Source: Sciscionella marina DSM 45152 (lineage in GTDB: Bacteria > Actinomycetota > Actinomycetes > Mycobacteriales > Pseudonocardiaceae). Taken from it: a DNA stretch of 64,000 nucleotides. The translations under genes and the position numbers were made by a program. Within the stretch, counting starts at the first letter, position 1, and each line of letters begins with the position of its first letter. Location: positions 206 to 64,205 of the forward strand of contig NZ_KB905395.1 in assembly GCF_000379465.1 (NCBI RefSeq). Direction: 5' to 3'. Of the stretch, positions 13,044 through 64,000 are shown piece after piece. The notes under the pieces were generated by a model. The model was not told the DNA's origin, did not search any database, and saw only the letters and a program-made list of their open reading frames with translations.

Positions 13044-13053
13044 CCCTCAATCC

Positions 13054-13095
13054 CGGGTGCCTCGGTACGCGCCTCGCTGTACCGGGGCACCCGGC
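13054..13095 (+). terminator. Strong hairpin between precursor and lanB (attenuator)
   Basis: Arms CCGGGTGCCTCGGTAC (13054-13069) and GTACCGGGGCACCCGG (13080-13095) pair over 16 bases, with one G-U pair, around a 10-base loop. No T-run follows, so it is better seen as a partial terminator or an RNA end-stabiliser. It would keep precursor transcripts in excess over the modification enzymes, a common arrangement in lanthipeptide clusters. Confidence 0.65.
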
Positions 13096-13156
13096 ATCCG
13101 CGTGGTTTCTCTTGTCGTTTCTGGCTTTCGCTGTCGTGGGAGGAGGTGTGTATCCG

Positions 13157-30820: not shown

Positions 30821-30842
30821 CACGCGGACACGGGGGCTTTCG

Positions 30843-41237: not shown

Positions 41238-41819
41238 TCACTGTCCGGACTTCTCAAGCAGTTCGGCTTCCAGGCCGGCAACGCGTTTATCGAGGAACCG
41301 GGTGTTGTCGCGGGCAGCCTGTAAGCGTTCCTGTAGGCGCTGGTTGTCGTGGGTGAGCTGACGGACCTTCTGTTTGAGGGTGGTGTTCTCGATGACGGTC
41401 CGTTGGATGCCGTCCTCGGGCAGATCCAGTTCCAGGTCGCGAACCTTGCCCAGTAATTGCCCAATAGTGGTGCGCTGTAAGGAAATCTCCTCGTGCGCGC
41501 GACTGAGTACCTCTTCGGCGTTCAGCGCTCGTTCCCGCCACGCTGCCTCGTTCTTCGCGGTCTGCTCGGCCTGGTCCCGGACGTGTTGCCCCCTGGCCGC
41601 AGCGGTGGCTTCCTCGACGAGCTGACGGGCGTTCGGGTTCTGGTAGAGGAAGGTGCGGGAGACTCCGGCTCGTCGGGCGAGGGCGGCGACGGTGATTTTG
41701 GCGCGTTCGCGGCGCATCTGGCGAAGGGCATCGCGGACGCGGTCGAGCATGTTCTCGATGCTGCTGCGGCGGGCGTCGAGCGCGGCCGCGGCGCGGCTCG
41801 TAGTGGGTGTGGTCGTCAC
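41238..41819 (-). CDS. tnpC: TnpC-like protein (DUF6262 type)
   Basis: 193 residues: an N-terminal segment with a helix-turn-helix (KITVAALARRAGVSRTFLYQ, about residues 42-62), then a long coiled coil (EEISLQRTTIGQLLGKVRDL, TLKQKVRQLTHDNQRLQERL). TnpC of Tn554 is not essential but affects efficiency and orientation of insertion. Its ATG overlaps the stop of tnpB (ATGA, 41816-41819), matching the Tn554 order. DNA binding through the HTH is likely. Confidence 0.8.
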   Translation of the reverse strand: MTTTPTTSRAAAALDARRSSIENMLDRVRDALRQMRRERAKITVAALARRAGVSRTFLYQNPNARQLVEEATAAARGQHVRDQAEQTAKNEAAWRERALNAEEVLSRAHEEISLQRTTIGQLLGKVRDLELDLPEDGIQRTVIENTTLKQKVRQLTHDNQRLQERLQAARDNTRFLDKRVAGLEAELLEKSGQ

Positions 41820-44470: not shown

Positions 44471-45645
44471 GGCTGCTGCTCCCAGACGGTGTTCAGCGCG
44501 GCGACGAACATCGGGTCGTGAACATCGACATGGCCGTAGGTCTCGTCGACGGTGGTGGCTGAGGCCCAGCCGCCCGCGTCACGGGCAATGACGGTGTTAC
44601 CGCCGCAGGCATCCAGCACATTGGTGGCGAACTCGTGGCGCCACTGGTGTGGGCGGATCTTGCCGAGTTCCAGGCGGATTCCCGCCCGGCCCAGCATCCC
44701 CCGAGCGGCCACCGTGGCCCAGGGCTGGCCGTAGCCCGGGCCGTGCAACTGGACCAGCAGCATGCCGTGCTCGGCCTCGGACGGGTATTCGGTGGTCATG
44801 TACTCGAAGTAAGTGTGGATCATCGCCGGGCTCGCCCGCCGGATCGCCCCACCCCGAACAATCCCGTCCACCAGCGCCCAGGGGTGTTTGGTCTTGACAC
44901 GGGCACGGTTCGGATTGTTCTCCCGGTGACAGATGTGCACGTGCGGCGATCGGCATTCGCCGCAGGCCGCGCCCTCCCGCAAGTGCAGGTCGATCAAGTG
45001 CAGGCCGCAAAGCTCGCCGATGCGGAACCCGCCATCGTCCAGCCAGGTCACCACCATGCGATCCCGCGCCGCGGACAGCGCCTCGATCAGCCGGCCACGG
45101 GCACCCTGCGGCGGCATCTTCGGGTGCCGCCGCCGAACCGTTTTCGCTGGGGCCAGCGGGTTCGCGGGCACCACCTTCTTGGTGTGGCCGAGGAAAGCCC
45201 GCCGCTTGTCGGCCTTCGTCGGCAACCGGGTGTGCTGGAACTCCTTCGCCACGCCCTGGTTGACCCCGCGCATCCCCTGATAGAGGTAGAAACCCTTCAG
45301 CGCGGCCGCGGTCGTTTCCAGGCTGCGCTGCCCGTAGGGACGCTTGCCCTCCCGCCACGGGCGCCCGAACGGCCCGGCGTACTCGGCACCCAGCAGTCCC
45401 ATGTAGCGCTGCAAATCCCGCAACACCACCAAATCCGTACTCAGGCCGTCGAACTCCAGCCACCGCAGATGATCCACCAGCAGATAGGCATAGGTCCGAT
45501 CCGTCCCGCCCTCACAGGACCGCAGGAACCCATCCGCCATCCGATGAACCTCACCACCGGGAAACACGATCGTATAAGCCCGACGCCCGTTCCCGTGCAC
45601 CACTTCCTGAACCCGGATATTCCCGATAACCAGCCGCCCGGCCAC
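44467..45645 (-). CDS. tnpA: Tyrosine recombinase TnpA of a Tn554-like element
   Basis: 392 residues, near the 361 of Tn554 TnpA. N-terminal SAM-like core-binding domain (RTYAYLLVDHLRWLEFDGLS), catalytic domain with DDGGFRIGELCGLHLIDL (Arg, about residue 210), HQWRHEFATNVLDACGG (His-x-x-Arg, about residue 335) and VDETYGHVDVHD (Tyr, about residue 370). First gene of tnpA-B-C, starting about 120 bases inside the right end of the element, so the promoter must be within that stretch. The ATG overlap with tnpB points to one polycistronic message. Confidence 0.9.
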   Translation of the reverse strand: MAGRLVIGNIRVQEVVHGNGRRAYTIVFPGGEVHRMADGFLRSCEGGTDRTYAYLLVDHLRWLEFDGLSTDLVVLRDLQRYMGLLGAEYAGPFGRPWREGKRPYGQRSLETTAAALKGFYLYQGMRGVNQGVAKEFQHTRLPTKADKRRAFLGHTKKVVPANPLAPAKTVRRRHPKMPPQGARGRLIEALSAARDRMVVTWLDDGGFRIGELCGLHLIDLHLREGAACGECRSPHVHICHRENNPNRARVKTKHPWALVDGIVRGGAIRRASPAMIHTYFEYMTTEYPSEAEHGMLLVQLHGPGYGQPWATVAARGMLGRAGIRLELGKIRPHQWRHEFATNVLDACGGNTVIARDAGGWASATTVDETYGHVDVHDPMFVAALNTVWEQQP

Positions 45646-47918: not shown

Positions 47919-48962
47919 CTATAGGCCAACCCTTGTTGCGCCTAAGAATTCGCCGATAACACGCAGATTGGCCTCGTGGATCTTCTCTCCGGATTGCGGT
48001 GCTTCTACCTGGTGGTTGTTGCCGCTGTAGATGGCGATGTGATGAATGCTGCTGGGGCTACTTCCGTAGAAGAGGAGGTCTCCGGGCTGAAGGTGGTCTC
48101 GGGGGATTTGGTGTGCTGCGGTTGCTTGGTATTGGGCTGCTGATGTTCTGGGGAGGGTGGTTTTGCCTTTGGTGGCTTGGTAGTAGGCGTAGCGGACGAG
48201 GCTGGAGCAGTCGAAGCCGGTGACGCCTGCGTCGATACCGGTGCCTTGGCTGGGTCCGTTGAGGGTTCCGCCTCCCCAGGCGTAGGGAGTACCGATCCAT
48301 TTTCGGGCGGCGCTGATGACCGCGCCTGCTGTGCCGCCGGGTGTTTGGGTGGGTTGCGTGGCGGCATATTTCTGTATGATTTTGCGGATTTTGGCGATGT
48401 AGTTGGTGGTTTCGGGGAAGGGTGGGACGCCGCCGTATTGCAGTACGCGGCCGGGTCCGGCGTTGTAGGCGGCGAGGGCGAGGTCGATGGTGTTGCCGCT
48501 GAGTCCGGGGTGTGCGTGGATGGTGCGGACTTGGGCGCACATGTAGTTGGCTTGTGTGGGTATGGCGTCGGCGGGGTCGGTTGGGTCGGTTGTGCCGTCG
48601 TGGTTGCCGTCGATCTTGTAGGTGTTCCAGGTTGAGGGGAGGAATTGTGCGAGTCCTTCGGCTCCGCTGCTGGGATTGTGGGCGTGGGGATTCCATCCGG
48701 ATTCGGTTTCGATCTGCGCTGCGAGCAGTGGTGCGGTGATTTCGGTGCAGGTGTGGGCGGCTTGGTGCAGCGGTTCGGTGGCCCATTTTGGTACGCTTCC
48801 GGGGCGTAGCTGGGTGTCGTTGCTGTCGACGCTGCTGTCTTGTTTCTTGACTGCGCTGCTGTATCCGGTGGCGCTGCCCAGGACCATGAGTAGGAACAGG
48901 ATGAGCAGGAGCATCGGCGAGGCCGCCAGTGCTACGCCGAGGGCGATGTTGCTGCGCCGCAT
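47919..48962 (-). CDS. Conjugation cell-wall hydrolase: SLT transglycosylase plus NlpC/P60 peptidase
   Basis: 347-residue bifunctional peptidoglycan hydrolase that would open the wall for the transfer channel (VirB1-like role). Membrane anchor at residues 5-32. Lytic transglycosylase part: QIETESGWNPHAHNPSSGAE with Glu87, then GLAQFLPSTW and LALAAYNAGPGRV (about residues 160-172). NlpC/P60 part: GFDCSSLVRYAY with Cys252, and HHIAIYSGNN with His near 307. The start overlaps the stop of the lipoprotein gene (TGATG). The gene ends the minus-strand conjugation block. Confidence 0.9.
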   Translation of the reverse strand: MRRSNIALGVALAASPMLLLILFLLMVLGSATGYSSAVKKQDSSVDSNDTQLRPGSVPKWATEPLHQAAHTCTEITAPLLAAQIETESGWNPHAHNPSSGAEGLAQFLPSTWNTYKIDGNHDGTTDPTDPADAIPTQANYMCAQVRTIHAHPGLSGNTIDLALAAYNAGPGRVLQYGGVPPFPETTNYIAKIRKIIQKYAATQPTQTPGGTAGAVISAARKWIGTPYAWGGGTLNGPSQGTGIDAGVTGFDCSSLVRYAYYQATKGKTTLPRTSAAQYQATAAHQIPRDHLQPGDLLFYGSSPSSIHHIAIYSGNNHQVEAPQSGEKIHEANLRVIGEFLGATRVGL

Positions 48963-49534
48963 CAGTGCCCGCCTGGGACGGGTGGCATGTCCCCGGCGTC
49001 GGAGATGGAGAGCTGATTGATTCGCCAGCGGAGTGGTTGTCCTGTTGGGTGTTGGAGGGTGCAGTAGACGGCGTGCCCGAGAAGCGGTTTGCGGGCCCCA
49101 TCGGGTGTGACTGCGCTGCGTTGGGCGAGGACGCCACTCGAGCGAATGTTCCCGCGGGTATCGGGCGGGTCATCGGTGATGTGCCGCGTGGTGACTTCCA
49201 CGCGGGCGTGGCTTTGTTGGAGTTGGGGCCATTCGTCGTCGCGGATGCCGTCCTGTTGGTAGGTCTTGGAGAGTGGTCCGATCAGGTAGCGGCGTGCCGC
49301 TGTTGTTCGCGCGCGTTGTGGGGTGTCTTCGGTGTTGGTGTTCCAGGACAGCAGAGTTGTCGCGAACTCGGCGCATACCTGGTTCGGTGATGCGTACCGC
49401 TGCGAGGCATGGGTGGTCGCCGGGCGCCGGTGGTGGACCTGGACGTGGTGGGTGACGGTGCAGGCGGATGTGCTTACCGCGGCGAGCAGGGCGACGCGGA
49501 GCAGGCGCGTGTTGATGGTGCTGCGCTGTTGCAT
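48962..49534 (-). CDS. Conjugation-associated lipoprotein, 190 residues
   Basis: Signal peptide with lipobox-like STSAC (Cys25), a His/Arg-rich stretch (THHVQVHHRRPATTHASQRY), then a mixed helical and strand-rich domain (FATTLLSWNTNTEDTPQRAR ... VEVTTRHITDDPPDTRGN ... LGHAVYCTLQHPTGQPLRWR). Layout resembles small extracytoplasmic proteins found in actinomycete type IV secretion loci. It is coupled to the hydrolase gene by overlap and follows the giant methylase-helicase gene by 24 bases, so all share one operon. Confidence 0.72.
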   Translation of the reverse strand: MQQRSTINTRLLRVALLAAVSTSACTVTHHVQVHHRRPATTHASQRYASPNQVCAEFATTLLSWNTNTEDTPQRARTTAARRYLIGPLSKTYQQDGIRDDEWPQLQQSHARVEVTTRHITDDPPDTRGNIRSSGVLAQRSAVTPDGARKPLLGHAVYCTLQHPTGQPLRWRINQLSISDAGDMPPVPGGH

Positions 49535-49558: not shown

Positions 49559-52500
49559 TTAGGCACCGCGGCGGTGGCGTCCTCCGCTGTGGCTGTTGGT
49601 TCCGTGGTCGTGTGCCAGTGCGACCAGGTGCCGGAGACGTTGCCGACCCGTGGGCGCGCGCCCGCCATCCGGGTCATGGATCGTGTCGGTGCTCGGCGGT
49701 TGATCGAGTCCGTATCGCTCGGCAATCTCGGCGAAGATCGGCGTATCGCGCGGGTCCGTGCGCTCTGGGCTGTCGGTGGTGGGTTCCGGAGTAGCGGATG
49801 GTGCTTGGTTGGCGAGTCGACGCTCGGCGAAGAGCAGGCTGGCAGGAAAGGCTTTCGGACTCGGTTCCTGTGGCGCGGACGCGCTGGGTTCGGTGGCAGC
49901 TGGTTCGGCATCGGCGAGCGCGGCGGGGAATGGCTTTGCCTGTTTCGGCGCCGAAACCGCTACGTCGACAGGTTCGTCGTCTGAAGAGCGGTCTTCGGTC
50001 TTCTCGGGCTGTTCCTGGATCGCTGGTGCAGCCGCGTCCTGTTGAGGCACCGTCGTTGGCACGTGAGCGTCGATGCCACTGTCGGTGGCCGTCGGGTCGC
50101 CGGGTTGATCGGTGACCAGTGCCTGCGCGGGCTGTATCGTCTTGGACGAGGGCTGGTGTTGCGTCCTCGGTTCTGGTGCTGTGTCGACGAGTTGGCCGAT
50201 CTGGGTGGCGAGATCGAGTACGCGTTCCTGGGCGCCTTGGGTGATGCTGCTGTAGATGGTGCGGTCGTCGTGGTCGATCGAGCTGGTTTCGGTGGTGCTC
50301 ACGACTTTGTAGCCCGTCTCGGCGGCTTTCTGGGTAAGGCGTGTCCATTCCTTGGCCAGGAGCCGGTGGTCGGTGACTGGGACAGGGCGGAAAGGCTTCT
50401 CCTCGGAGGTCCCGTTCGGTCGGTCGTGACTGTCCTGATGCGTGACGGCGTTGGATTCAGTGCCGTCGGTTACCGGCGTGCTCGGTTTCGCCGCTGGTCC
50501 CTGCACGGGACGGCGTGGTTCTGCGTTTGCGTTGTCAGGCTGGGTGTCGGGTGCGGGTTCGGGTTGAGTCGATTGCTGTGGTGGTGTGGTGGCCCGCAAC
50601 GGTCGCGCTGGTTTGTGCGCGTTCGCGATGCGTATGCTGAGCTCGGCGCCGAGTTCGTGGACCTGGTTGCTGGTCTTGGTGTCGCTTGCTGCGAGGGTGT
50701 CGGCGAACACGGTGAGCGCTTGGTGGATCTCGGTGGCTTCCGCGTGGTTATGAGCGAGGTTGGTCAGGATCTGTGCGTGTGCCGCGGGCGTGGATTCGTC
50801 GGCGAGCATCCGGTTGGCCTGGATCAGGGCGAGCCGGGATGGCTCGTGGGCTTTGATTGAGGTGGGGATCTGGCGAACGCTGGCCGCAAGCACGGCTAGG
50901 AGTGGTTCTCGGCCAGGTGGAAATGCCAGTGTTTGCAAGGGATGGCGAGGTGCGTTCGATGGTCTCGTCGGCTGGGGTTCTTGCGGTGTGCCCGTAGTGG
51001 CTTCGGTGGCCGATGTTTCCTCGACGACTCCTGTTTCGGCCGGCTGATCGGCATGATCGTGCTCCTGCGGCGGAGAAGCCGGTTCTTCCTGGTCCGTCGG
51101 AGCCTCGCGTTCCGGTGCCTGGTCGGAGGTGATGCCGAGTTGTTCTGGTTCCCGCTGACCGTTGGCGTCTCGCTCGGGCTCGTCATCGTGCAGGGTCTGC
51201 TGGGACGGTCCGGACGGTTGATCGGCGAGCGCAGCATCGTCGGCTGCAGTGCTGGTTTGGGCGGTCGGCGTTTCGGTGTCGCCTTGGAGCACCGTGGTCA
51301 GCGAGTTGGGGAGTTCAATGCGCACCAGCCTCGGGTCAGGGTTGGTGCTGGCGTCGACATGCCAGATGGTCTCAGGGTCGGCGATGCGCTCGTCGAGGAG
51401 TTCGCCGCGGAGGACAAGGGTGTCGCCGTCTCTGGTTGGGAGCCCTGTCAGTCGGAATGGTCCGAAATAGTAGCCGGGATGTTCGAGCACGTCCCCGATC
51501 GCGAGTGCCGAGGCTGGCACGTGCGTCGTCGTCTTTTCGGGCATCGTGCGGAGGAGTTGGGCAATACGGTGTGCGAATTCGTGTTGTTCCGGTGCGAGGA
51601 GTTGCAGGGCTCTGTCGCGATCGAGTTCCGGTAGTCCGGAGCTGCGTTGGCGACGGGTCGGGGCGGTGCCGGTCTCGTGCGCGTGTAGTGCGGTGGCGAT
51701 GATGCGGTTCGCGATCCTGCGCTCGTAGGTGTCCAGTTGGTTCTCGGCGTTCTGGGCAAGGCGAGCTTCGCCGATCGCTCGGTAGCCACTCGCGTTGTGC
51801 TTGACGCTGAGGCTCGCGTGGTGGGCGTGTTGGAGCAACCAAGCGGTGCCGTCATTGAGGGCGGGGGCGAGCCAGATGGCGAGCTTGCGCCAGGTGATGG
51901 TTCCCTCCCTCGCTCCGTTTTGACCGTCGACCCGTAGCCACAGACCTTTGCCACTGAATTCGCCACGTTCCGGTGCCCGTGGGTCCGGTGCGTCGACGGA
52001 GCGCCAGCTCGCCCAGCCAGAGAAATTAGCGGGGTTGACCGGTTTCCCGTTGTGGATGCTGCGCAAGAACCGAGAGAGCTCCCAGGGCGCGATGTGGCGT
52101 AGTCCTTCGGCGATGTCAGAGTCGTTCAGTGGTGCCGGTTCCTCCGCGTCTGCGCCCGCGCTGCTGTGCTCGTCTGCGGCGGCTGTTTCGGTTTCCTCGC
52201 CCGTCAAAGGCGTGGTTGGTCCCGATGTGGTGCTGTGTTCGGGCGCCGCTGTGGTAATCGCGTCGAGCTGGTCCAGGTGTGCCCGGTTTTCGGGTGTCAG
52301 GAGTTCAAGGGCCTGCGTTCGGTCCAGGCCCGGGATGGTAGGGGCGGGACGGGTGCGTGGTCCGGGTGGGTTTCCGGTTTCGTGGGCTTGCTGCGCGGCT
52401 TTCGCGATGGTGGCAAGAACCTGGTCGCGAAGCTCGATGACCGTCTGGAAATCAGCGTCGGTTCCGTACTGGCCGTTGCGCAACTGACCGTAGACAGTTT

Positions 52501-55500
52501 CGGTGTGCGCCAGCAACCATGCCCGCCCTTGGTCGAGGCCGGGAACGAGCCAGCGCGCGAGCTTTCGCCAGGCGATGTGGCCCGCGCGCGGGTGTTCGGG
52601 GCTGTGAACGTCGAGGCGGATCCCGGACCGGTCGGCGTACAGACTTTCGTGGACACCGGGCTCGGTGGTGGTGTCGTCGCGTGTACCGGAGAACGCGTGC
52701 CCGGACGTGGGGTTGGTGGGGGCGCCTTGGATGATGCTCGCGGCGAAAGTGTTGATCAGCACGGGGCCCAGGTGTTCGACGATGTGGGCGATGTCGGCGT
52801 CGGTGAGTCCCTGGGGAGCCTCATCGGATGCGGTCGCGAATGCTGATTCGACGAGCTGTGTCGGCTCGGGTTGATCGTCGCGGGCTGCCGCGGCTGTGTC
52901 GACGTGTTCGGATGGCGCAGTGAGGCTGTCGAAGCTGAGCTGACCGATCTGTTCGGTTGCCTGCGGTTGCCGCGTCGGGGTCTCGGCGACCTCGGACTCC
53001 GTGGCGTTTGTGGTGATAACGGGGACCGCGGCGTCGGCCGGGACGGTTCGGGAACGCTGTGAGCCGTCTGGTGGTTGGAGGACCAGCAGCATCGTGGTGG
53101 CGTCCACGGGGCGAACCTCGACCACGGTCGCGTGCGCTTGTTCGCGGTCGTCGTCGAGTTCAATGTTCTGCCCGGCGGTGTTGATTGGTAGCCGGGCGTC
53201 GTCGTTGGCGAGCCTGCGCAAGGCGTTCTGCGCGCGGGCGGTATCGAAATCTGCTGCTTTCCTGGCTTGTCCGACCGAGGCGGTGACTGCACGGCGGTAG
53301 AGGTCGGCGTCGAGCGTTTCGAGTTCGCTGTAGGTCTGATGAGGACGTAGCCCGTTGCGGGTCCGTCCGGAGAGCAGGACAGCGACGGCGTTGCGTGCCT
53401 GGCTGCCGGTGTGTGTTCTGAGGACGTATCGCGCGACGGCTTCGCGGTTGCGGAAACGCGGAATGCTGATGTGCACGGCGGCGTCGAGGTGTTCCCCGGT
53501 ATCCGGATCGCGCCAGCCGTTCTCGTCGCGTACGACGTGACGGCCGTCTGTGCTGGCGAGAGCATCGGGCGGGTCTGGGGACAGGAGTGGTTCGATGGCC
53601 CGGCGGCCGGGTTGGCGGGTGGGCAGCGCGATGCCGTGGCGTCCCAGATGCGTGAGGAGGTGTTCCATGCCCGCGCGGCTGCTGGTGTAGGCGGGGTTGA
53701 TCTCGATCCAGTCGGCGTCGGCTCCCAGGTTCTCGTTGTAGACGTGCTGTTCGACCAGCAACTGGTCGTCGAGGTCGTAGTTCAGGGCGAGAAGCAGTTC
53801 GTCGCGCAGCCACGCTTGGGTGTGGCCGGTCTCGTTGGGTTCTTCCTGAGCGAGGGTCCAGCCCCAGGTGGCGGGGTCGAGTGGATGTTCGCTGTCGATG
53901 CCGTCCACCACTGGGAAGCGGTGGTCGGCCGCCCGGTCGTGGAAATCCTCAGCGACAGCCTGAGCGTCGTCCTCGGCTGCGTCGTGGCGGGTTTCACCCA
54001 CCTCGGGGTCATCTGTGCCGGGCGGGTCCGCGGGGAGCGTGACTTCTAGCGGCGGTATCTCCGGATCCGCGTCGCTGTCGCGCGACTCGGTTCCCGTAGC
54101 AGGATCGACGGGATCGGCGACCGCTTCGCCCTGGACTGCGACGTCGGTGTCCGGAGTGGAGTCGGCGGTTTCCGAACGGGACGTGTCCCCATCGGAGGCG
54201 GTTGGTACGAGGGTGTCGAGGTGTTCGCGGGCTTGGGCGATGCGTTGGGCTGGTGTCAGTTCGGCCCAAGTGCCGATCTCGTTGGGTGCGCTGTGGTGTC
54301 CGGCGTGCCAGCGGGAGAGCACGGTCGTGAGGCGGTGTCCATGCGTCTCGGCGTGTTCGGCGAGCGCGTCCCATTCCCTGAGTGCGGTAGCGCCATCCGC
54401 GGCGTTGAGCACGACGCGGCCATGTTGGTCGAACCAGGCGTCGGGGGCGAAGGTGTGGGTTTGGCGTTCGCCGTAGCCGGTTTGACCGGTGATGCGGACC
54501 TGATTCGCGTCGTCGCGGTCGACGCGTTCGACGAACAGATCCCCATCAAGCCGAATCACCAGTCCGACCAACTCGGCATCGGTGATGCGAACGAGCCCGA
54601 GCGGGTCACTGCGTCGTTCACTGCTGGACTCCAGGTCAGTGCCGTCGCCTTCCGGTGCATCCTGAACGGCCTCGGATCCTTCGTCTGCGTCGGCGGCAAC
54701 GCTGACGGGTGTTTCGTCGCCAGCGCGGGGATCGACGTCTGCGAGGGTGCTCTGGGTGTCGACTGCTTGGGGCACGGTGGCCTGTGCGACCGTTCCGGTG
54801 TGCGCGACGATCGGGGCTTCGTCTGGGGCGGTGAGCTTTCCGGAAACGGGGTCCCGGCTGGTGCGGGGATCAGCGTCGAGGAGCACCGCGTGTCCGGCGC
54901 TGTCGTGGCCGCGCAGGTGTAGGTGTCCGGTGATGCCGATATCGATGCGGTGGATGCGCAGCGGCTCACCGCTTTCCGGGTGCGCAACGGTGAGGATGCC
55001 GGGTTCTGCGTCCAGCACTGTCTGTTGGCGTTCCTGTGCGTGGCTCAACAGGTTCGTAGCTTCGTCTGCGCTGATCTGGCCGTTCACCAGCTGCCACACG
55101 GCGCTTTGCGTGGTCGCCGCGAACGGAGTGGACCTGTCTTGGTTGAGCAGCGTGGCTCGTGCCTCGGTCCAGGAATAGCGCAGCACCTCCGAGTCACGGC
55201 CGCGGATCGCACCGTTGTCGACATATCGAGGGAGCTCGTAGCGCGACACACGGGGGTACTCGGCGGCAAGAACGGTCCGCCACCGCGACGGAAGGACCCG
55301 AATAGCCGGTCCCCCGCGTCGGTTGTCGAGTTGGTAAGCGACAGTGAGCAGTGTGTCGGCGATGGCAGGGATCCCGATCGCGGTGCAGATCCTCCCGGTG
55401 GGGCTGTCTTGTCCTCCCAGTTCGATCAGCGCATCGGAATGTGCGACCAATCCGGCAACAACCGCGGACACGGCCTCGTCGTCGACCCGGGACTGAACCT

Positions 55501-58500
55501 GGTCAGCCGTGTCCCGCTCGGTTCCGGATTGCTGTCCTTGGGTCAGGATCGTGCGGACCACACCGATGGTCGTGCGGACGTCCGGTACTCGAAGCTGGTC
55601 ATCGTCGGGTAGGAGCGCTGCGATGAGGCCGATCGTGTGTGCTCGGGCAGCGTCCGCGGTGGTGTCGGCATCGTGTTCGTGAATCCAGGCTGAACGCAGT
55701 TGTTCGATCGTCTCCCCGGAGAACAGGTCGTGCCATAGCTGCCGGACCGGTTCCTGCGCGGTGTCGCGCATCGTCGCGACGTGTTCCGCGGTGTCCAGTT
55801 CATCGATTCGGCCGCGGATCGCCTGGACGTGCCGGTCGGACAGGTCGTGCAGATCGGTCGTGATCGCGAATCCGGCATCGTGGAGCCGTTCCGCGGCATC
55901 GGTGAGACGTCGCTGGAGACGCTGGTGGAAGTCGATCATGGCGCGCTGGTCGCGTTGGACCTTCCACGTTTTCGGCAGCAACCAGGCACCGTGCTCGCCG
56001 TTCGGAGTTGGTACCTGGCGCCACTTCCATCCGGCCCGTTCGGTCCGAAGCAGGTCACCGATACCGTCGACCTTCTCGGTCCCGAGGAGCTGGACGCCGT
56101 GGTTGTACGAGTAGTGCAGGATCAGGAACCGCTTGCTCGTCTGCTCGGGCTCCGTGGTCGCGGAGGTTTCCGCGTGTTGCGCGGTTTGCACCGCAATCTC
56201 CGTAGCTGTTTGGGCGGTGTTCTCCGGCTCCTGGAGCGTGTACGTCGTCTCGTTCTGCTGGCTCCCCGGCGGCTGGGGCGGCTGCTCGGCACTCGCCGCC
56301 GCGTCGCCACTGGTCGGTTCTGGCTCATCCGCGCGTGCCGTTCCCGCGCCCGGGTCGGTTTCGGCGGCGGGTTGCTCCACTGTTTCCGGTTCGACGACCG
56401 GCGTGTCGTCGTGTTCGTTCACTGCGCCGGTTTCGGCGGTGTCTGGTTCGGGTTCGCCTGTGGTCAGGGCGTGGGTGAGCGCGGCGAGACGTGTGCTTTT
56501 CTGGTCGAGTTGTTCCTGTTGGGCGAACGTGTCAGTGCGGCTTGTCTGGGCTTGCTCGGCCGTGTGCCGTAGTCGCGTGATGGTTTCTTGCTGTCGTTGC
56601 AGGTCTGTTTCGAGGCTGTGGAGTCGGTTTTCCAGTCGTAGGACCAGATGGTGGCTATCCGGCAAGGCTCTGTGGTGCAGGGCAACCGAAGCACCGACAC
56701 CGGAAAACCGCAGGGTGATGTCAATAACTTTGTCACCTGGGGCGAGTTTGGCTTCGAGTTGGTGGCCGCCGAGTTCGCCGATGGGAATCGTGGCTGTGTC
56801 GTGCTGGCCGAGATCTTTGAGCCGGGTCCGAAGCAGTGCTTTGAGGTGTTTGGCTGCTTCGGTGCGGTCGGTATGGTCCTTGGTGCCGATCCGCATGGCG
56901 AAGGCTTCCCCGCGAGTGTCGCGGCGCTGGGCGATCGCGGCCTTCAGTCCCGTGACTCGTTGCTCATAGCGCGGTATTTCGACTTCGGCTGTGTCGATGG
57001 TGAGTCGGTGTGCGGTTTGCTGGCGTGCCCAGGCTTGGCGCAGGCGGGTAAGGCGATGGACTTCGGATTCGAGTTTGGCTTTCTCCAGGACGCGGGGATC
57101 GCCGGAGGCAGCGGCCATGAGTTCGCCGTAGAGGTCGGTGTCTTCGTCGGGCATGTCGATGACGCGGCTGGTGATCTGCCCGGTCATCAGAGGCCGGAAC
57201 CCGGTCCATTTCTGGCGGACAAGTTCCCATCGTTTGGCATCGAGACTCGGTGCGGTGACCAGGGTTTCGTCGAAGATCTCGGCGTTTTGGTTGCCTTGCC
57301 GTTCGACTCGTCCGCGTTCCTGATGGGGAATATCGGCGCGCCAGGGCGGGGTGATGTGGTAGAGCCCGATGGCGCGGTCCTGGATGTTCACGCCGGTGCC
57401 CATTTTCTCCGCGGATCCGATGAGGACAGCGACCTCACCGGATCGGGCGGCGTGAAACAGTTCGGCCTTCTGCTGGTCGGTACCGGCTTCGTGGATGTAG
57501 CGGATCAAGCTGCCCGGCATTCCACGGTTTTCGAGTTGGGTGCGGAGTTCGTCGTAGAAGTTCCAGCCGTTCTTCGGGGTCGACAGGGAACAGAACACCA
57601 GCTGCAGGGCGCCCGGGGTGGGGTGCTCGGTGCCGTCCCTGCGCAGGTATCGGGTGTCTCGGTGTTCTTGCCAGCGCCCGAAAACCCGGTCAGCGAGGAC
57701 ATCGACCTTCTGTGGCTCGGCTGTCTGCATGTCGAGAGTGCGCAGATCCAGCGCAGCCGACACGCCCTCGTGCAACAGCGACAGGTGGTTGTCGTCGCCT
57801 TTTTGCGGGCGCGGTGGGATGTTTGCGTACCTCGTTCCGAGGGAGTGGTTGAAATCGGCGAGTTCTTCGCTGGCTGGGACCTCGACGACACGCGAGTGCA
57901 CGGTGGGGGTGGGCAGGTTGAGGTCTTCGGCGGTACGGATATCGGCACGCAGCCGGAGTTGGCGGGACAGCTCGGGCACGTTGACCAATTTGCGGAGGCG
58001 GGTTTTGTCCTTGAACCCACCGCCGGGAATCATCTCTTGAGTGGTGGACAGTTCGGCAAAAGTACGCGCCCAGTTGTCCAGTGCCCCGACGTCGAGACCG
58101 AGGCGTTTTTGGATGGTGTGGATCTCGGCGAGGCTGTTGGTCCACGGTGTGGCGGTCGCCAGCACGACACGGGAGTGCCCGTATTCTCCGACCAGGTGGG
58201 CGAGTTTGATGTCGAAGTCGATCGCCCGGACTGCGCCGGGATGGCCCAGGTCGGGCAGTGAGGAGTGGCGCCGCGAATTCTTGTAGTCCTGGGCTTCGTC
58301 GCACACGATTTTGTCGATGCCGAGGTCTTCCCAGCACAGTCCGGGATCGCGGGGCATGTTGTGCAGGCGTTGTTTCAGCGATTCTTCGGCGTTCGCCTGC
58401 GCCTCTTCGAGCTGTTTGACGGTGCGCTGATCGCATCCAGCTTCGCGCGCGTTCTCCAGCGCGGCGGCGATCTCATCGCGTTCGGCGGCGTGATAGGCGT

Positions 58501-61500
58501 GCGCGGTCTCGCGGCGCACCGGTAGTGCTTGAAAGCCTGTGCGGGTCAAGATGATGGCATCCCAGCTGCCGGTGGCCACACGCGCGACGAATCGCCGCCG
58601 GTTCTCGACAGTCAGGTCGTCGCGGGTGGCGGCGAGCAGACGGGCTTGGGGGTAGGCGCGCAGCCATTCGGTGCGGAACTGTTCAAGCATGTGGTTCGGT
58701 ACGATCACGACCTGCCGGTTGGTCAGCCCGAGTCGGCGGCATTCCATCGCGCCGACGATCATCTCCAGCGTTTTGCCCGCGCCGACTTCGTGGAACAGAC
58801 CGACGGCGGGGTTGAAGATCTGCGCGGCCACCGCGTTCTTCTGATGCCCGCGTAGCTCATAGGCCGGGGACAAGCCGGGCAGATCCAGGTCGATGTCGTC
58901 ATAGCGACGCGGGATTTCGGCGTTGAACCGATCGTTGTACTGCTCCACGAGCGCGCGGGCGCGGGTGGTGTCCTCCCACACCCAGGACGCGAACCGGTCG
59001 CCGAGCTCGACTGCCTTGAGTTTCGCGGCCTCGGTGGCCGGCGCATCGGTGCGGATGGCACCGTCCGAGTCCTTGTAGGTCACACGGATCGGCCGACCAG
59101 TCAGGGTCGCTTCGAGCAGCTCCTGCGCCGGACGCTGCCCGGTTCCCCACTCCTGCCGGGCGGCGGGGCTCGTGCGTGATCCACCGTTGACAGTCCAAAT
59201 GTTCTCGCCCGGGTGATCAACAGTGATCCGATCGTCGCCGAGGAGTTCTCGGATAAACTGCTGCACATAGGATGCGTCGACCCACGAGCCGAGCTGGACC
59301 TCGATCTCCTCCGGTCCCAGATCCGCGGGAACGACCTCGGTGAGCGCATCGACGTTGGGTTGCCATCGCGGGTCTTGTTCGGCCGCGGCGGCGGCGGTGC
59401 GGAGTTTGGCGCGGACATTGCCGGACAGGTAGTCGTTGCGCAGCACGGCCTGCCCGGTGTCCGGCTCGGTGAACACGAGTTCTCCGAGCTTGTCTCGTGC
59501 TTCCTCGGCGCCGTTGAGACCGAGAAGTTCGGCGATCGTGTCCAGGTCGAGGCGTCCGTGCTTGTTCAAACACAGCGAGATCGCGTCGGTGGGCGACTCG
59601 GTGGCGGTGCGGGGCGTGACCGGGGTGATGACGCGTTGAGTGAAGATCTGGGCCTTGGCCGCGATACCGGATACAGGGTCGTAGTCCTCCAGTGCCGCTA
59701 CCAAAGGCGCCATCGGATCGCTGCGGAACCCGCCCTGTGCGGGTGTCACGCGAATCTCGGTCGTCAGGCCATGATTGCTGGGGATGAAGTGGGCGCTGTC
59801 GGTTTCGGGCAGCGTGGACAGGTACTCCTGCGCTGCCTCGATGGTGGTGTGGTCGAGTCCGGTGTCCTTGTCGCGGTGGCGGTTCCGGATGGCCGCGAAG
59901 TGCTTGGTCAGCCGGTCGGATCCGGCTCCGGCGGTGCCAAGTTCCTGGAGGTATTCCAGCAGTGCCTGCTGGGAGGTCGGGATGGACGTGTAGTCGCGGT
60001 CACGGCACCAGCGCGCCCACACGTGCCATGGCGTTCGGTTTTGGGTGCGCCAGGTGAATCGGTTGATCGGCCCCCAGGTCGCCGCATACTGGTCGTAGTC
60101 CCGGTTCAACCGGGCACGCAGGTCCCCGATTTCGGTGGTGTCGTTCGGGTTCTGTTGTTCGGCGGCCAGCAGCGCCTGAGTGGCGTCGCGCAGCTCCAGC
60201 AGGACACGTAGCTCGGCGCGGTCTTTCTTCGTGGGTTCGTACGGGATCCAGTGGCCCTCCGCCCACACGTCGAATCCGGTGCCGTGGATACGAATCTGCC
60301 CGTCGACGAGCTGTTCCGCATCGTCTCGGAAGCGCACCTCGGACGCCGCTGTTTCGGTGGTGGGCGTGGGGATCGACATTCCGGACTCCTGCGCGGCGCG
60401 CACGTCCGCGCGCAGCCGCGTGCGCAGTGCTTCGGCAAGGTCGGGGTGCCGCATGGAGACGGTAAGCTCGTGCTCACGATAGGGACCGTGCCCGGCTGTG
60501 AAGGTGCCCAACACGTGTTCGGGGTGAGTGTGGAACCACTCGTTGACCTCCAGCTCCACCAGCTGGTCATCGGTGGGGATCGCCAGTGGGCGTGTCTGCT
60601 GCCACCCCTGCTGCGGCGCAGGTGATTCGGTGGTGTCGCGGCGGCGCAGGACGAGCAGGTCGGTGACCACCGTGGTTCCGGCCGCGGCTTGGTGCGCGCC
60701 GCTGGGCAGGCGGATGGCGGTGATCAGGTCAGCGAGGTCGGCGATCTCCGCACGAGCGCTCGGATCGGTGGAGTCCAGGGTGTAGCGGGAGGTCAGCAAG
60801 GCCACGACCCCGCCGGGGCGGGTCATGCGCAGGGATTTGAGGATGAAGTGGTTGTGGATGGAATGCTGGTTCGTGGGGTTGTATTCGGGATCATGCAGCC
60901 GGATACGGCCGAACGGCACGTTCCCCACCACCGCATCGAAATAAGCCTCGCCACCGGTCACGTCCGCGAAAGACCCCGCGAGGATCTGGGCGTGCGGGTA
61001 CAGCGCTGCCGCGATGGCCGCGGTGGTGGGTTCGACTTCGACCCCGGTGACCGCGATCCCCTCGGGCGCAGTGCCGAGGAAATTGCCTGCCCCGCAGCCA
61101 GGCTCAAGGACCTGCCCGCGGGTGAGGCCGAGGTCGTGAACGGCTTCCCAGATCGGTTCGACCAGACGTAGGTCGGTGTAGTGGGCGTTCAGCGTCGAAC
61201 GTCGCGCCGCGGCGTAGTCCCGTTCCCCGAGCAAAGTTCGCAGTTCCTGGCGCGCCTCGGCATGGTCGGGGTTGTCGTCGTCGAAGACCGCCGGGACCGC
61301 GCCCCACCCGGACCAGCGCACGAGGATCCGCTGCTCGCCGGTCGTCGCGACCCGTTGCTCGTCCTGGATCGTGCGCAGGGTGCGCAGCGCGGCGAGGTTC
61401 GCCGCGACCCGGGCCTTGGGTCCCGAGGGTGCCAGATCATCCTGAGTGGCAGGACGAAACGACCTATCTAGTTCTCCTGCTCCGGATCGTCCTCGTTCTC

Positions 61501-61723
61501 CGGGTTCGGCAGGTATTCGCGCAGGATCGTCGACTCCGCCGTCTGCCGGGCCGTGTTGCGTTGCCGGTAATTCTTCAGGAAGTCCCCGCTCGGCGGGTCC
61601 TCGCTCGTGTGCTGCTCGGTCAGCGCGCTCGCCAGGTGGTCGATCTCGAAGGCCATCTGCTCGCCCAGCTCGGTAAAGTAGGTCTGGGGATCGGTGATCT
61701 GCGCGTACCGGTCGGGCAGCCAT
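49559..61723 (-). CDS. Giant DNA methylase-helicase of conjugative elements, about 4000 residues
   Basis: Numbering from ATG 61723. N6-adenine methylase domain: LEPGCGAGNFLG (about residue 205) and NVPFG (about residue 268, in place of NPPY). SNF2-like helicase: FHEVGAGKTLEM (Walker A, about 977), VCDEAQDYKN (about 1141), KMGTGVNIQDRA and QERGRVERQGNQN (about 1445-1470). Then a coiled coil (1550-1750) and 2000 residues of mixed folded and acidic Pro/Thr-rich sequence, including two related 180-residue segments (about 2970-3150 and 3200-3375). Such fused proteins travel with conjugative elements, perhaps protecting incoming DNA. Start unresolved: conserved sequence begins about 61460, but no ATG/GTG/TTG is in frame there; 61723 overlaps the next gene by 256 bases. 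Confidence 0.85.
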   Translation of the reverse strand: MAARPVRADHRSPDLLYRAGRADGLRDRPPGERADRAAHERGPAERGLPEELPATQHGPADGGVDDPARIPAEPGERGRSGAGELDRSFRPATQDDLAPSGPKARVAANLAALRTLRTIQDEQRVATTGEQRILVRWSGWGAVPAVFDDDNPDHAEARQELRTLLGERDYAAARRSTLNAHYTDLRLVEPIWEAVHDLGLTRGQVLEPGCGAGNFLGTAPEGIAVTGVEVEPTTAAIAAALYPHAQILAGSFADVTGGEAYFDAVVGNVPFGRIRLHDPEYNPTNQHSIHNHFILKSLRMTRPGGVVALLTSRYTLDSTDPSARAEIADLADLITAIRLPSGAHQAAAGTTVVTDLLVLRRRDTTESPAPQQGWQQTRPLAIPTDDQLVELEVNEWFHTHPEHVLGTFTAGHGPYREHELTVSMRHPDLAEALRTRLRADVRAAQESGMSIPTPTTETAASEVRFRDDAEQLVDGQIRIHGTGFDVWAEGHWIPYEPTKKDRAELRVLLELRDATQALLAAEQQNPNDTTEIGDLRARLNRDYDQYAATWGPINRFTWRTQNRTPWHVWARWCRDRDYTSIPTSQQALLEYLQELGTAGAGSDRLTKHFAAIRNRHRDKDTGLDHTTIEAAQEYLSTLPETDSAHFIPSNHGLTTEIRVTPAQGGFRSDPMAPLVAALEDYDPVSGIAAKAQIFTQRVITPVTPRTATESPTDAISLCLNKHGRLDLDTIAELLGLNGAEEARDKLGELVFTEPDTGQAVLRNDYLSGNVRAKLRTAAAAAEQDPRWQPNVDALTEVVPADLGPEEIEVQLGSWVDASYVQQFIRELLGDDRITVDHPGENIWTVNGGSRTSPAARQEWGTGQRPAQELLEATLTGRPIRVTYKDSDGAIRTDAPATEAAKLKAVELGDRFASWVWEDTTRARALVEQYNDRFNAEIPRRYDDIDLDLPGLSPAYELRGHQKNAVAAQIFNPAVGLFHEVGAGKTLEMIVGAMECRRLGLTNRQVVIVPNHMLEQFRTEWLRAYPQARLLAATRDDLTVENRRRFVARVATGSWDAIILTRTGFQALPVRRETAHAYHAAERDEIAAALENAREAGCDQRTVKQLEEAQANAEESLKQRLHNMPRDPGLCWEDLGIDKIVCDEAQDYKNSRRHSSLPDLGHPGAVRAIDFDIKLAHLVGEYGHSRVVLATATPWTNSLAEIHTIQKRLGLDVGALDNWARTFAELSTTQEMIPGGGFKDKTRLRKLVNVPELSRQLRLRADIRTAEDLNLPTPTVHSRVVEVPASEELADFNHSLGTRYANIPPRPQKGDDNHLSLLHEGVSAALDLRTLDMQTAEPQKVDVLADRVFGRWQEHRDTRYLRRDGTEHPTPGALQLVFCSLSTPKNGWNFYDELRTQLENRGMPGSLIRYIHEAGTDQQKAELFHAARSGEVAVLIGSAEKMGTGVNIQDRAIGLYHITPPWRADIPHQERGRVERQGNQNAEIFDETLVTAPSLDAKRWELVRQKWTGFRPLMTGQITSRVIDMPDEDTDLYGELMAAASGDPRVLEKAKLESEVHRLTRLRQAWARQQTAHRLTIDTAEVEIPRYEQRVTGLKAAIAQRRDTRGEAFAMRIGTKDHTDRTEAAKHLKALLRTRLKDLGQHDTATIPIGELGGHQLEAKLAPGDKVIDITLRFSGVGASVALHHRALPDSHHLVLRLENRLHSLETDLQRQQETITRLRHTAEQAQTSRTDTFAQQEQLDQKSTRLAALTHALTTGEPEPDTAETGAVNEHDDTPVVEPETVEQPAAETDPGAGTARADEPEPTSGDAAASAEQPPQPPGSQQNETTYTLQEPENTAQTATEIAVQTAQHAETSATTEPEQTSKRFLILHYSYNHGVQLLGTEKVDGIGDLLRTERAGWKWRQVPTPNGEHGAWLLPKTWKVQRDQRAMIDFHQRLQRRLTDAAERLHDAGFAITTDLHDLSDRHVQAIRGRIDELDTAEHVATMRDTAQEPVRQLWHDLFSGETIEQLRSAWIHEHDADTTADAARAHTIGLIAALLPDDDQLRVPDVRTTIGVVRTILTQGQQSGTERDTADQVQSRVDDEAVSAVVAGLVAHSDALIELGGQDSPTGRICTAIGIPAIADTLLTVAYQLDNRRGGPAIRVLPSRWRTVLAAEYPRVSRYELPRYVDNGAIRGRDSEVLRYSWTEARATLLNQDRSTPFAATTQSAVWQLVNGQISADEATNLLSHAQERQQTVLDAEPGILTVAHPESGEPLRIHRIDIGITGHLHLRGHDSAGHAVLLDADPRTSRDPVSGKLTAPDEAPIVAHTGTVAQATVPQAVDTQSTLADVDPRAGDETPVSVAADADEGSEAVQDAPEGDGTDLESSSERRSDPLGLVRITDAELVGLVIRLDGDLFVERVDRDDANQVRITGQTGYGERQTHTFAPDAWFDQHGRVVLNAADGATALREWDALAEHAETHGHRLTTVLSRWHAGHHSAPNEIGTWAELTPAQRIAQAREHLDTLVPTASDGDTSRSETADSTPDTDVAVQGEAVADPVDPATGTESRDSDADPEIPPLEVTLPADPPGTDDPEVGETRHDAAEDDAQAVAEDFHDRAADHRFPVVDGIDSEHPLDPATWGWTLAQEEPNETGHTQAWLRDELLLALNYDLDDQLLVEQHVYNENLGADADWIEINPAYTSSRAGMEHLLTHLGRHGIALPTRQPGRRAIEPLLSPDPPDALASTDGRHVVRDENGWRDPDTGEHLDAAVHISIPRFRNREAVARYVLRTHTGSQARNAVAVLLSGRTRNGLRPHQTYSELETLDADLYRRAVTASVGQARKAADFDTARAQNALRRLANDDARLPINTAGQNIELDDDREQAHATVVEVRPVDATTMLLVLQPPDGSQRSRTVPADAAVPVITTNATESEVAETPTRQPQATEQIGQLSFDSLTAPSEHVDTAAAARDDQPEPTQLVESAFATASDEAPQGLTDADIAHIVEHLGPVLINTFAASIIQGAPTNPTSGHAFSGTRDDTTTEPGVHESLYADRSGIRLDVHSPEHPRAGHIAWRKLARWLVPGLDQGRAWLLAHTETVYGQLRNGQYGTDADFQTVIELRDQVLATIAKAAQQAHETGNPPGPRTRPAPTIPGLDRTQALELLTPENRAHLDQLDAITTAAPEHSTTSGPTTPLTGEETETAAADEHSSAGADAEEPAPLNDSDIAEGLRHIAPWELSRFLRSIHNGKPVNPANFSGWASWRSVDAPDPRAPERGEFSGKGLWLRVDGQNGAREGTITWRKLAIWLAPALNDGTAWLLQHAHHASLSVKHNASGYRAIGEARLAQNAENQLDTYERRIANRIIATALHAHETGTAPTRRQRSSGLPELDRDRALQLLAPEQHEFAHRIAQLLRTMPEKTTTHVPASALAIGDVLEHPGYYFGPFRLTGLPTRDGDTLVLRGELLDERIADPETIWHVDASTNPDPRLVRIELPNSLTTVLQGDTETPTAQTSTAADDAALADQPSGPSQQTLHDDEPERDANGQREPEQLGITSDQAPEREAPTDQEEPASPPQEHDHADQPAETGVVEETSATEATTGTPQEPQPTRPSNAPRHPLQTLAFPPGREPLLAVLAASVRQIPTSIKAHEPSRLALIQANRMLADESTPAAHAQILTNLAHNHAEATEIHQALTVFADTLAASDTKTSNQVHELGAELSIRIANAHKPARPLRATTPPQQSTQPEPAPDTQPDNANAEPRRPVQGPAAKPSTPVTDGTESNAVTHQDSHDRPNGTSEEKPFRPVPVTDHRLLAKEWTRLTQKAAETGYKVVSTTETSSIDHDDRTIYSSITQGAQERVLDLATQIGQLVDTAPEPRTQHQPSSKTIQPAQALVTDQPGDPTATDSGIDAHVPTTVPQQDAAAPAIQEQPEKTEDRSSDDEPVDVAVSAPKQAKPFPAALADAEPAATEPSASAPQEPSPKAFPASLLFAERRLANQAPSATPEPTTDSPERTDPRDTPIFAEIAERYGLDQPPSTDTIHDPDGGRAPTGRQRLRHLVALAHDHGTNSHSGGRHRRGA

Positions 61724-61764
61724 CGGCGCCAATGCGTCATCGCTTTGGCTCCGTACTGGTTCAT
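61468..61764 (-). CDS. Small conserved conjugation-locus protein, 98 residues
   Basis: MNQYGAKAMTHWRRWLPDRY begins a short helical protein that I recall as a regular neighbour of methylase-helicase genes in actinomycete elements; its function is unknown. Helices around YFTELGEQMAFEIDHLASAL and FLKNYRQRNTARQTAESTIL; acidic tail DPEQEN. ATG 61764 has AGGAGA just upstream. It overlaps the only usable start of the giant gene in another frame, so either that gene starts inside this one or its start is non-standard. Confidence 0.7.
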   Translation of the reverse strand: MNQYGAKAMTHWRRWLPDRYAQITDPQTYFTELGEQMAFEIDHLASALTEQHTSEDPPSGDFLKNYRQRNTARQTAESTILREYLPNPENEDDPEQEN

Positions 61765-61830
61765 GGGTCTCCTCCTCACCGCCAGTATGACCCGGATCGG
61801 TGAACCCGTGTGGTGTCTTCTCGTGCGGTG

Positions 61831-62532
61831 TCATCGTGTCGTCTCCCCCGTTTTCGCGTATGGCTCACCGTCTGGTGGTTCGTGGTCTTGCCCGAGCGGT
61901 GTCATGACGGGGGAATGACGGGTGGGGCTACACCCCGAGAAAGGTCCGACCGGGCTGGTCAGCACGGTCAGGTGCGGGTCGAGGTGGTCGCGCAGATACG
62001 TCGAGAGCCATCCCGGCTCGCCGGACTCGGCGAGGTCGCCGTAGGCCCAGTACAGGGCGGTGAAGCGTTCGATCGCGTCGTGGTGGCACCACCACGTCCG
62101 GCACCAGCGCAGCCCGCCGCCCTCGCCGCTGGTGGTCATCTTGCGCACCAACGGTGCGATCTGTTCGCCCACCCATGCGTACAGCTGCTCCTGGGTCGGG
62201 CGGGGAGGCTGCTTTTTCTGGCGCTGGCTGCCCTTTTTCCGCGCAGCGCTCGGTTCCTGCTCGGCCACGTGGTCGGTCTTCGTGTGTGACGGGGACGTGG
62301 CCGGGACCGGTGGCTCGGGCGGGCTGGGTTGAGTGCGCAGGTGGTGGGTAAGCGCGCTAAGGGATTCCTCCAGGTCGTCGTGCCAGCTCAACATGGTCTC
62401 GTGGCGCTTGTGCTGCTCGTTGAGTCGTTGATGAACAAAGAAGATGTCCGCGGACAGCCCATCGAGCTGAACTTGCATCGCGGCCAGGAGATCGCTGGGT
62501 TCCGGGTGTGCTGGTTCGGGTGGTTCAGTCAC
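61831..62532 (-). CDS. DUF4913-family protein
   Basis: 233 residues. N-terminal coiled coil (DLLAAMQVQLDGLSADIFFV), a Lys/Gln/Pro-rich linker, then the DUF4913 domain (about residues 115-205): LYAWVGEQIAPLVRK, GGLRWCRTWWCHHDAIERFT, ALYWAYGDLAESGEPGWLST, HLDPHLTVLTSPVGPF. This family is recurrent in actinomycete conjugative elements, where it accompanies the coupling protein; its function is not established. GTG 62532 overlaps the end of the coupling-protein gene by 8 bases. Confidence 0.8.
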   Translation of the reverse strand: MTEPPEPAHPEPSDLLAAMQVQLDGLSADIFFVHQRLNEQHKRHETMLSWHDDLEESLSALTHHLRTQPSPPEPPVPATSPSHTKTDHVAEQEPSAARKKGSQRQKKQPPRPTQEQLYAWVGEQIAPLVRKMTTSGEGGGLRWCRTWWCHHDAIERFTALYWAYGDLAESGEPGWLSTYLRDHLDPHLTVLTSPVGPFSGCSPTRHSPVMTPLGQDHEPPDGEPYAKTGETTR

Positions 62533-64000
62533 CGCGGCCTCCTTCGCGCAGGTGCGCGGCCACGGGGTTGTCCGGTCCGAGGTAGTCGATCGCGGCCTGT
62601 TTGACCTGTTCGGTCGCGGCGCGCGCGTGCCCGGCGATGTCCTGGTCCTCGTCGGGCTCGGCGTACCAGGGGTGCAGCGTCAGCAGTCCGGGTCGGCGAC
62701 CGCTGGTGAACAACAACGCCTTCGAGCGATCCAGGGCGGCGATGTCGGCCGCGGTGAGGATGCGTTCGGTACGCAGGGACCGCGAGGACGAGTGGCCTCC
62801 CGCGGAGTAGCTGGTCGAGGTCTCCTCGACCTTGTGATCACCGACCAGGCGGGAGAGGTCTTCGGCGAAATCCGGATCCGCGAGCCCCGCGCCGACGGTC
62901 TTGATGGTGGCCGCGGACCAGAGGGCGTCGAAACCTTCGCGCCCCCAGGTGGCGCGGCCCTGTTCGCGGGACTGGAGCACGACGGTGACCGAAAGCCCCA
63001 TCGAGCCGAACCACGACATCCACGATGGCAATTCCGGGAGCCGGACGATATTGGCGCACTCGTCGAGTGGCAGCGTGACGACTGGGTCGAGTCGGCCGCC
63101 CTGGGCGGTGGCGGCATGTACCGAGACCTGGATGAGTTCCCCGATCAGCGCGGCGACGATCGGGCGCCCGGACCCTTCCCCTTCGCGGGAAAGCAGATAC
63201 AGGCTCGGGTGCCGCGCGCCGGGCGGGGTGAGCAGCTGCCAAAGGTCGAGCTTGGCAATGGGCTCGATACGGTCTGGTGGGTGTTCCCAGGTATCGGGTG
63301 GTGTGACCCACCGCAGCAGTGCCTCACTGTCCAAACAGGACACCGCGGTCGACACGCCTTCGTAGATGCCGCCGCGGGTTTCGACCGGCAGCTCCAGGGT
63401 GGAGCGCAGTGAGGCCGCTTGTGCGGGGAATCCGCCGCGTTCCAGATGCGCGGCGGGTTCGTCGCTTCGGGTCGCGATCCACAGAACGACGTCGCGCAGC
63501 GTGTAGCCGCCGCACGCGGCGGCGAGCAGGAGTTGGCGCAGTGTTTTCGCCGCGGCCGGGGTGAAGAACGGGTCGGCCCGGTTGGTTCCGCCGCTGGCGT
63601 TGGCGCCGACTTCGCGCATGAAGTATCCCGCCATCCGCGCCGCGGATTCCACGTCGACCACGTGCACGAGCGGGTCCCACCACCAGGACTGCTCCTGATA
63701 GGTCAAATGCTGGGCATCGAACGTGAACACCGGCCCGACCCGCGAGCGCAACGCGGCGGTCAGCAGCCACACGTCGGGTTTGTTGCTTGTGGCGATCACC
63801 GGTCCGGGCGCAGCCAGGATCTCCGGGACGACCTTCGCGGAGGTCTTGTTCGAGCGCGGCCCGCAAAGGACCACTTCGACGTCCTCCAGGGACTTGAACA
63901 GCAGGCGTCCTTGGATCGAGCCGAGCCGCGCCCCGATCCGGCGCACATCGATTTCCTTGCTGGGTGTGTTGGCCAGCGAGGGGGCCAGACCTTGCGCGCG
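62525..64000 (-). CDS. Type IV coupling protein, TraG/TraD-like (cut by window edge)
   Basis: C-terminal 490 or so residues of a conjugation coupling ATPase that brings the relaxosome to the transfer channel. The frame is open at base 64000, so the N-terminal membrane part lies outside. Nucleotide-binding motif: VLCGPRSNKTSAKVVPEIL (GPRxxKT, about nt 63820-63880). Further TraG-type features are PVVTLPLDECANIVRLPELP (Walker B region), VTVVLQSREQGRATWG (motif like SxxQxxxQ) and TSYSAGGHSSSRSLRTERIL. First visible gene of the minus-strand transfer operon. Confidence 0.88.
   Translation of the reverse strand, partial: RAQGLAPSLANTPSKEIDVRRIGARLGSIQGRLLFKSLEDVEVVLCGPRSNKTSAKVVPEILAAPGPVIATSNKPDVWLLTAALRSRVGPVFTFDAQHLTYQEQSWWWDPLVHVVDVESAARMAGYFMREVGANASGGTNRADPFFTPAAAKTLRQLLLAAACGGYTLRDVVLWIATRSDEPAAHLERGGFPAQAASLRSTLELPVETRGGIYEGVSTAVSCLDSEALLRWVTPPDTWEHPPDRIEPIAKLDLWQLLTPPGARHPSLYLLSREGEGSGRPIVAALIGELIQVSVHAATAQGGRLDPVVTLPLDECANIVRLPELPSWMSWFGSMGLSVTVVLQSREQGRATWGREGFDALWSAATIKTVGAGLADPDFAEDLSRLVGDHKVEETSTSYSAGGHSSSRSLRTERILTAADIAALDRSKALLFTSGRRPGLLTLHPWYAEPDEDQDIAGHARAATEQVKQAAIDYLGPDNPVAAHLREGGRGD

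Follow-up and report, generated by a model that had tools for sequence, protein, structure and literature searches.

The window analysed here, a stretch of 64,000 nucleotides from Sciscionella marina DSM 45152, holds a gene of about 12 kb within a conjugation operon, raising the question of what a gene of this size encodes, and whether it encodes one protein or two.

The giant gene lies in a conjugation operon

An open-reading-frame check of the window confirmed the giant gene of about 4000 residues put forward in the original prediction, as one uninterrupted frame of 4091 aa on the minus strand (49559-61834). Its start had been placed at 61723, an ATG within the frame; translation more likely starts from the ATG at 61834, preceded by GGGGGAG and overlapping the stop codon of a DUF4913 protein gene (61831-62532, minus strand) in the sequence ATGA, and we prefer this position because the giant frame of the relatives begins upstream of the small nested gene, tnpV, described below. 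Translational coupling of the DUF4913 gene and the giant gene is probable.

Read from right to left, the operon consists of a type IV secretion system (T4SS) coupling protein with TraG/TraD C-terminal and T4SS-DNA_transf domains (62525-64000, minus strand, running past the window end), the DUF4913 gene, the giant gene, a conserved hypothetical protein of 190 aa immediately downstream (48962-49534, minus strand) and a protein combining an SLT transglycosylase with an NlpC/P60 hydrolase (47919-48962, minus strand), so that the predicted placement between coupling-protein and cell-wall hydrolase genes was correct. The same gene order surrounds a 7285-aa homologue in Amycolatopsis sp. AA4, with a few additional small genes separating DUF4913 from the giant gene, and of the 63 relatives for which 8 kb or more of upstream sequence was available, 34 have a coupling-protein gene upstream in the same orientation. 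The core of the giant protein is present once in the genome to which the window belongs.

Several other features of the window were noted. The 190-aa hypothetical protein has no family match and adjoins the NlpC/P60 gene in such operons (also at L041, 47508-48098). On the strand opposite to the transfer operon lie a MobA/VirD2-type relaxase (30669-32369, plus strand) and, at 34049-35575 (plus strand), a protein whose N-terminal domain is that of DnaB. A dnaE-like gene for DNA polymerase III alpha (37312-40396, minus strand) is broken across two frames near 38690, its PHP/NTPase part at 38219-40396 and its finger/HHH/OB part at 37312-38718; the split may reflect a pseudogene, an assembly error or a frameshift. 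Between this gene and the transfer operon sits a Tn554-like set (41238-45645, minus strand) of two phage-integrase-family recombinases and a DUF6262 protein. Class I lanthipeptide-type genes, for a PCMT methyltransferase, a LanB dehydratase and a LanC cyclase, occupy 11267-17454 (plus strand).

The core is a DarB-like methylase-helicase

The first 1700 residues of the giant protein are occupied by a methylase-helicase dyad consisting of LPD36, a TaqI-type N6-adenine methylase with NVPF and a SNF2 motor, with a conserved core at 56915-61459 (minus strand). The LPD36-like N-terminus carries its GXG(G/A/S) motif as WSGWGA at aa 174 (GWGA, 61315-61298, minus strand), and both glycines are invariant in our alignment. 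The methylase fits the gamma class of N6-adenine enzymes; its motifs are LEPGCGAG (SAM motif I) at 61108 (aa 243) and NVPF at 60925-60911 (GNVPF at aa 304), both on the minus strand; LEPGCG.G and GNVPF are invariant in six sequences, NVPF being a variant of NPP(Y/F). C-terminal to the methylase lies the SNF2 ATPase (58792-57293, minus strand), in which HEVGAGKT, DEAQ, TATP, MGTGVNIQ and QERGRVERQG were all found, with Walker A and B and motifs III, V and VI intact and conserved. The original call of an adenine methylase with NVPF joined to a SNF2-type helicase is thus upheld, all motifs being present and the key methylase and SNF2 residues being invariant in five aligned relatives of 36-50% identity. 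At the position of the TP motif that caps the helix N-terminal to the methylase core, the window protein has YTD, and YTP occurs only in the G006 relative.

Profile searches gave the same picture: the match to PHROG 10089, "DarB-like antirestriction", spans aa 98-1845 (E=0), and among solved structures the core profile matches the TaqI methylase (E 5e-6) and ISWI/SMARCA motors. Relatives were found in 1992 plasmid records, 718 of them predicted to be conjugative, in 114 phage records and in 494 stretches of GTDB genomes.

Proteins of this kind have been described. DarB of phage P1 acts in cis, shielding DNA from type I restriction, and a like role has been proposed for the methylase-helicase fusions found on conjugative elements (PMC5512222). 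Iyer et al. 2017, who described the methylase-helicase dyad of polyvalent proteins, proposed methylation of DNA entering the recipient and reported an actinobacterial version, 12,242 aa long, to which UvrD is added (PMC5512222). The window protein shares with P1 DarB and the LPD36-methylase-SNF2 dyad, in this order, an LPD36-like GWGA, a TaqI-like N6 methylase and a SNF2 ATPase, as well as the mobile-element context; it differs in having NVPF instead of NPP(Y/F), its own set of C-terminal modules and a nested tnpV. Judged by its sequence, the giant protein is a member of the described DarB-like polyvalent family and by itself adds little; the earlier treatment of it as undescribed does not hold (PMC5512222).

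The C-terminal half carries recurrent modules

The C-terminal 2300 residues consist of disordered or low-complexity linkers bearing small modules. Pfam, NCBIfam and PHROGs gave nothing convincing beyond the core, and in this respect the claim of 2000 largely unassigned residues stands; it fails in that several modules are common to relatives, each recurring, often several times, in relatives of 7285, 8812 or 5407 aa. Module M1 (55796-56131, aa 1902-2013) shares 50% identity with part of the 8812-aa relative, and M3 (53141-53881, aa 2652-2898) has several copies in giant relatives. The tandem modules M4a and M4b (51275-52879, aa 2986-3198 and 3229-3520) form an internal duplication that is repeated in relatives too, and M7 (50189-50359, aa 3826-3882), of about 60 aa, is repeated in AA4 and other Amycolatopsis relatives; all lie on the minus strand. 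The sole plasmid match to the C-terminal half is AA4, and it is weak. Most other relatives stop shortly past the core, and the long tail is therefore lineage-specific.

The 8812-codon relative, a single open frame (L033/L034/L040, G007:C101:71059-97494), combines methylase and SNF2 motor with a DnaG primase and a UvrD helicase. The 7285-aa AA4 relative carries DnaG; domain searches found neither DnaG primase nor UvrD in the window protein.

A second gene is probably nested within the giant gene

Reading the locus as a single gene missed a second frame indicated by GC3. A putative tnpV-family gene of 98 aa (starting MNQYGAKAMTHWRRWLPDRY) lies on the minus strand at 61764-61468, in the -1 frame relative to the giant gene and within its first 300 bases. 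It has a strong Shine-Dalgarno sequence, GAGGAGGAG, and GC3 over this interval tracks the small-gene frame, not the giant frame. Where it overlaps tnpV, the giant frame encodes a peptide that appears disordered and may serve only as a linker. Within the window alone, the openness of the giant frame over the small gene is unremarkable (P about 0.10-0.37), and the case for dual coding rests on the relatives.

Searching with a profile grown from the small protein recovered a counterpart in 73 of 82 loci, in almost every case adjoining the core. Where both genes were in place, the giant frame stood in the -1 relation to the small gene in 68 of 70 loci, and many loci have no ATG, GTG or TTG between the stop of the small gene and the conserved core. 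This constant relation, together with the frequent lack of a later start codon, indicates that the giant protein most likely starts upstream and reads through the small gene. When the set was broadened to 105 loci from Actinomycetota and Bacillota, the small gene lay upstream of the core in 91, comprising 85 nested loci (all in one frame), five adjacent and one partial; an in-frame TnpV-giant fusion was found in none of the loci compared.

The openness of the giant frame was compared with chance expectation in 68 actinobacterial loci by keeping the small protein and drawing synonymous codons. The giant frame was stop-free across the small gene in 66 of the 68 loci, against 13-15 expected. It contained 9 stops overall, confined to two loci, where chance predicts 114-134, while the third frame contained 391 stops against 282 expected; these loci are mutually related, such that the counts overstate the independent evidence. 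All 16 close pairs compared showed less divergence at the fourfold-degenerate sites of tnpV than at those of the core beside it (0.155 versus 0.243 when pooled), and in most close pairs the amino-acid-changing positions of tnpV diverge as much as the core or more. Conservation extends to both reading frames, which keep a constant relation to each other, and the catalytic motifs remain intact.

The nesting extends to Bacillota

The 98-aa protein of the window has no Pfam match, including to TnpV (PF14198), and its membership of that family is suggested through relatives: 5 of 50 aligned relatives match PF14198 weakly (best E 0.0019), and several Arthrobacter relatives bear the RefSeq name "TnpV protein". 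In plasmids of Listeria monocytogenes, L. seeligeri and Enterococcus faecalis, the methylase-helicase gene encloses, in the same frame relation, a TnpV that scores above the Pfam cut-off, and six further Bacillota or gut-element loci show the same nesting. All nine of these loci (32-54% GC) have zero giant-frame stops across tnpV, against 4.6-13.4 expected in each; at 32-38% GC, 7-13 stops would be expected and none was found. Two tnpV copies with no methylase frame over them contain 2 and 4 stops. A scan of viral_contigs with the gut Bacillota core gave no match.

TnpV, named from transposon Tn4451, is also a small protein of conjugative and mobilisable elements; at this locus it is encoded within another gene. 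A role in Tn4451 excision has been postulated (PMC3158075), which leaves the lock to the methylase-helicase unexplained. The idea that TnpV is an acidic DNA mimic was rejected as a general one, since net charge averages -13 in the actinobacterial and -2 in the Bacillota versions. Stand-alone tnpV copies occur, for example on plasmid pMSR0, and because both stand-alone and adjacent tnpV genes exist, an origin by overprinting, in which the giant frame was extended upstream through a pre-existing tnpV, is likelier. A quick tree is compatible both with a single origin of the nesting and with its movement between phyla by transfer.

In the Bacillota and gut elements, the giant (methylase) frame encodes a separate N-terminal domain ahead of tnpV. 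The giant protein of a Micromonospora plasmid (L122, 4222-6200) opens with what by inspection is a DnaG-like domain, followed by the tnpV overlap and then the methylase core. A sliding-clamp-like motif (QLEFDLW, QLDLF, QPDLF, QLSLEALW; for example in L050, L073 and L119), mostly just upstream of tnpV, occurs in 54 of 68 actinobacterial giant-frame leaders against 0.15 in shuffles, the pattern having been defined after viewing the sequences. The window protein has no match to it, QLSFDSL at aa 2965 being the only similar stretch.

In the records examined, annotation keeps either TnpV or the full giant protein, never both. The SNF2 protein is the only name at the overlap in most Bacillota records, the E. 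faecalis pEFM9-2 record names TnpV and begins the SNF2 gene after it, and RefSeq places the start of the AA4 giant gene after the small gene. No description of a TnpV overlap or nesting was found in the open-access literature, and no mention of a nested tnpV or of "overlap" was found in the text of Iyer et al. 2017 (PMC5512222).

Discussion

We consider it likely that the locus produces a DarB-like antirestriction polyvalent protein and TnpV from overlapping frames of a conjugation operon, with TnpV as partner or regulator of the enzyme. The antirestriction role is probable by analogy with the family. The SNF2 motor would move along double-stranded DNA carrying the N6-adenine methylase, and the element DNA would thereby be methylated, most critically after second-strand synthesis in the new host, and escape restriction. 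The C-terminal tail would serve as a chain of accessory modules for binding, joined by flexible linkers. TnpV would have a translation start of its own within the giant gene and, made in step with the enzyme, would probably act as its partner or regulator, since the pair is locked in one frame arrangement in actinobacterial and bacillotal elements. We infer both the contact between TnpV and the enzyme and the action in the recipient. A role in handling or protecting DNA, as originally suggested, agrees with the presumed family function and the recurrent linkage to transfer genes; the proposed site of action in the recipient gains no such backing, as no basic signal of the T4SS type recurs consistently at the C-termini of 86 proteins, whose last 20 residues average a net charge of -0.20.

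Two other explanations of the overlap were weighed. High-GC genomes keep alternative frames open, and tnpV and the giant gene might simply be adjacent, non-overlapping genes, the latter starting after tnpV at a rare start codon, as RefSeq has it in AA4 and as an ATG after tnpV allows in a few relatives (L053, L124). We find this improbable: the nesting persists at 32-38% GC with no stop where 7-13 are expected, 85 of 85 nested loci share one frame, and in L053 and L124, which have the downstream ATG, the giant frame is closed upstream. Still less do we favour a programmed -1 frameshift by ribosomes reaching the end of tnpV, which would make TnpV the N-terminal domain of the giant protein. The nearly invariable -1 relation and the frequent lack of ATG, GTG or TTG past the tnpV stop fit such a mechanism, yet it needs no open giant frame through or upstream of tnpV, where the frame is open, carries domains and conserved leaders, and has usable upstream starts in most loci.

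Function, too, can be read in other ways. The core might serve mainly in processing or replicating the element's DNA, through remodelling or synthesis of the second strand, methylation being a lesser function; the joining of DnaG and UvrD domains to it in one polypeptide in relatives, the clamp-like motif in 54 of 68 leaders and the dnaE-like gene elsewhere in the window point this way. This is possible but doubtful, given that the window protein has no primase, UvrD or match to the motif pattern, that the methylase motifs are invariant, and that the pattern was defined only after the sequences had been viewed. Weak PADLOC matches of the methylase to mads_2 and Type II methyltransferases would suit a protein that supplies the modification activity for a restriction or phage-defence system on the element and is not an antirestriction factor. 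That assignment seems most improbable; Pfam and PADLOC scans of the flanking proteins found no nuclease or other defence component, the gene lies within a transfer operon, and DarB-like antirestriction is the best match by far.

Nested genes of this kind have a counterpart in comS, a short, out-of-frame gene wholly within the giant gene srfAB on the same strand in Bacillus subtilis. The tnpV pair differs in residing on mobile elements and in being kept across two phyla. That it is an ancient dual-coding pair, with one frame relation in Actinomycetota and Bacillota, in which co-translation couples a TnpV partner or regulator to the antirestriction enzyme, is in our judgement as likely as not.

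The nested gene shows that the annotation of such elements is often wrong, and the nesting points to a specific, testable partner for TnpV, a protein common on mobile elements. Deep same-strand overlap is rare in bacteria, and this one suits the study of two proteins co-evolving in one DNA segment. If the dual-coding pair is real, it would rank with the most deeply conserved gene overlaps known outside viruses.
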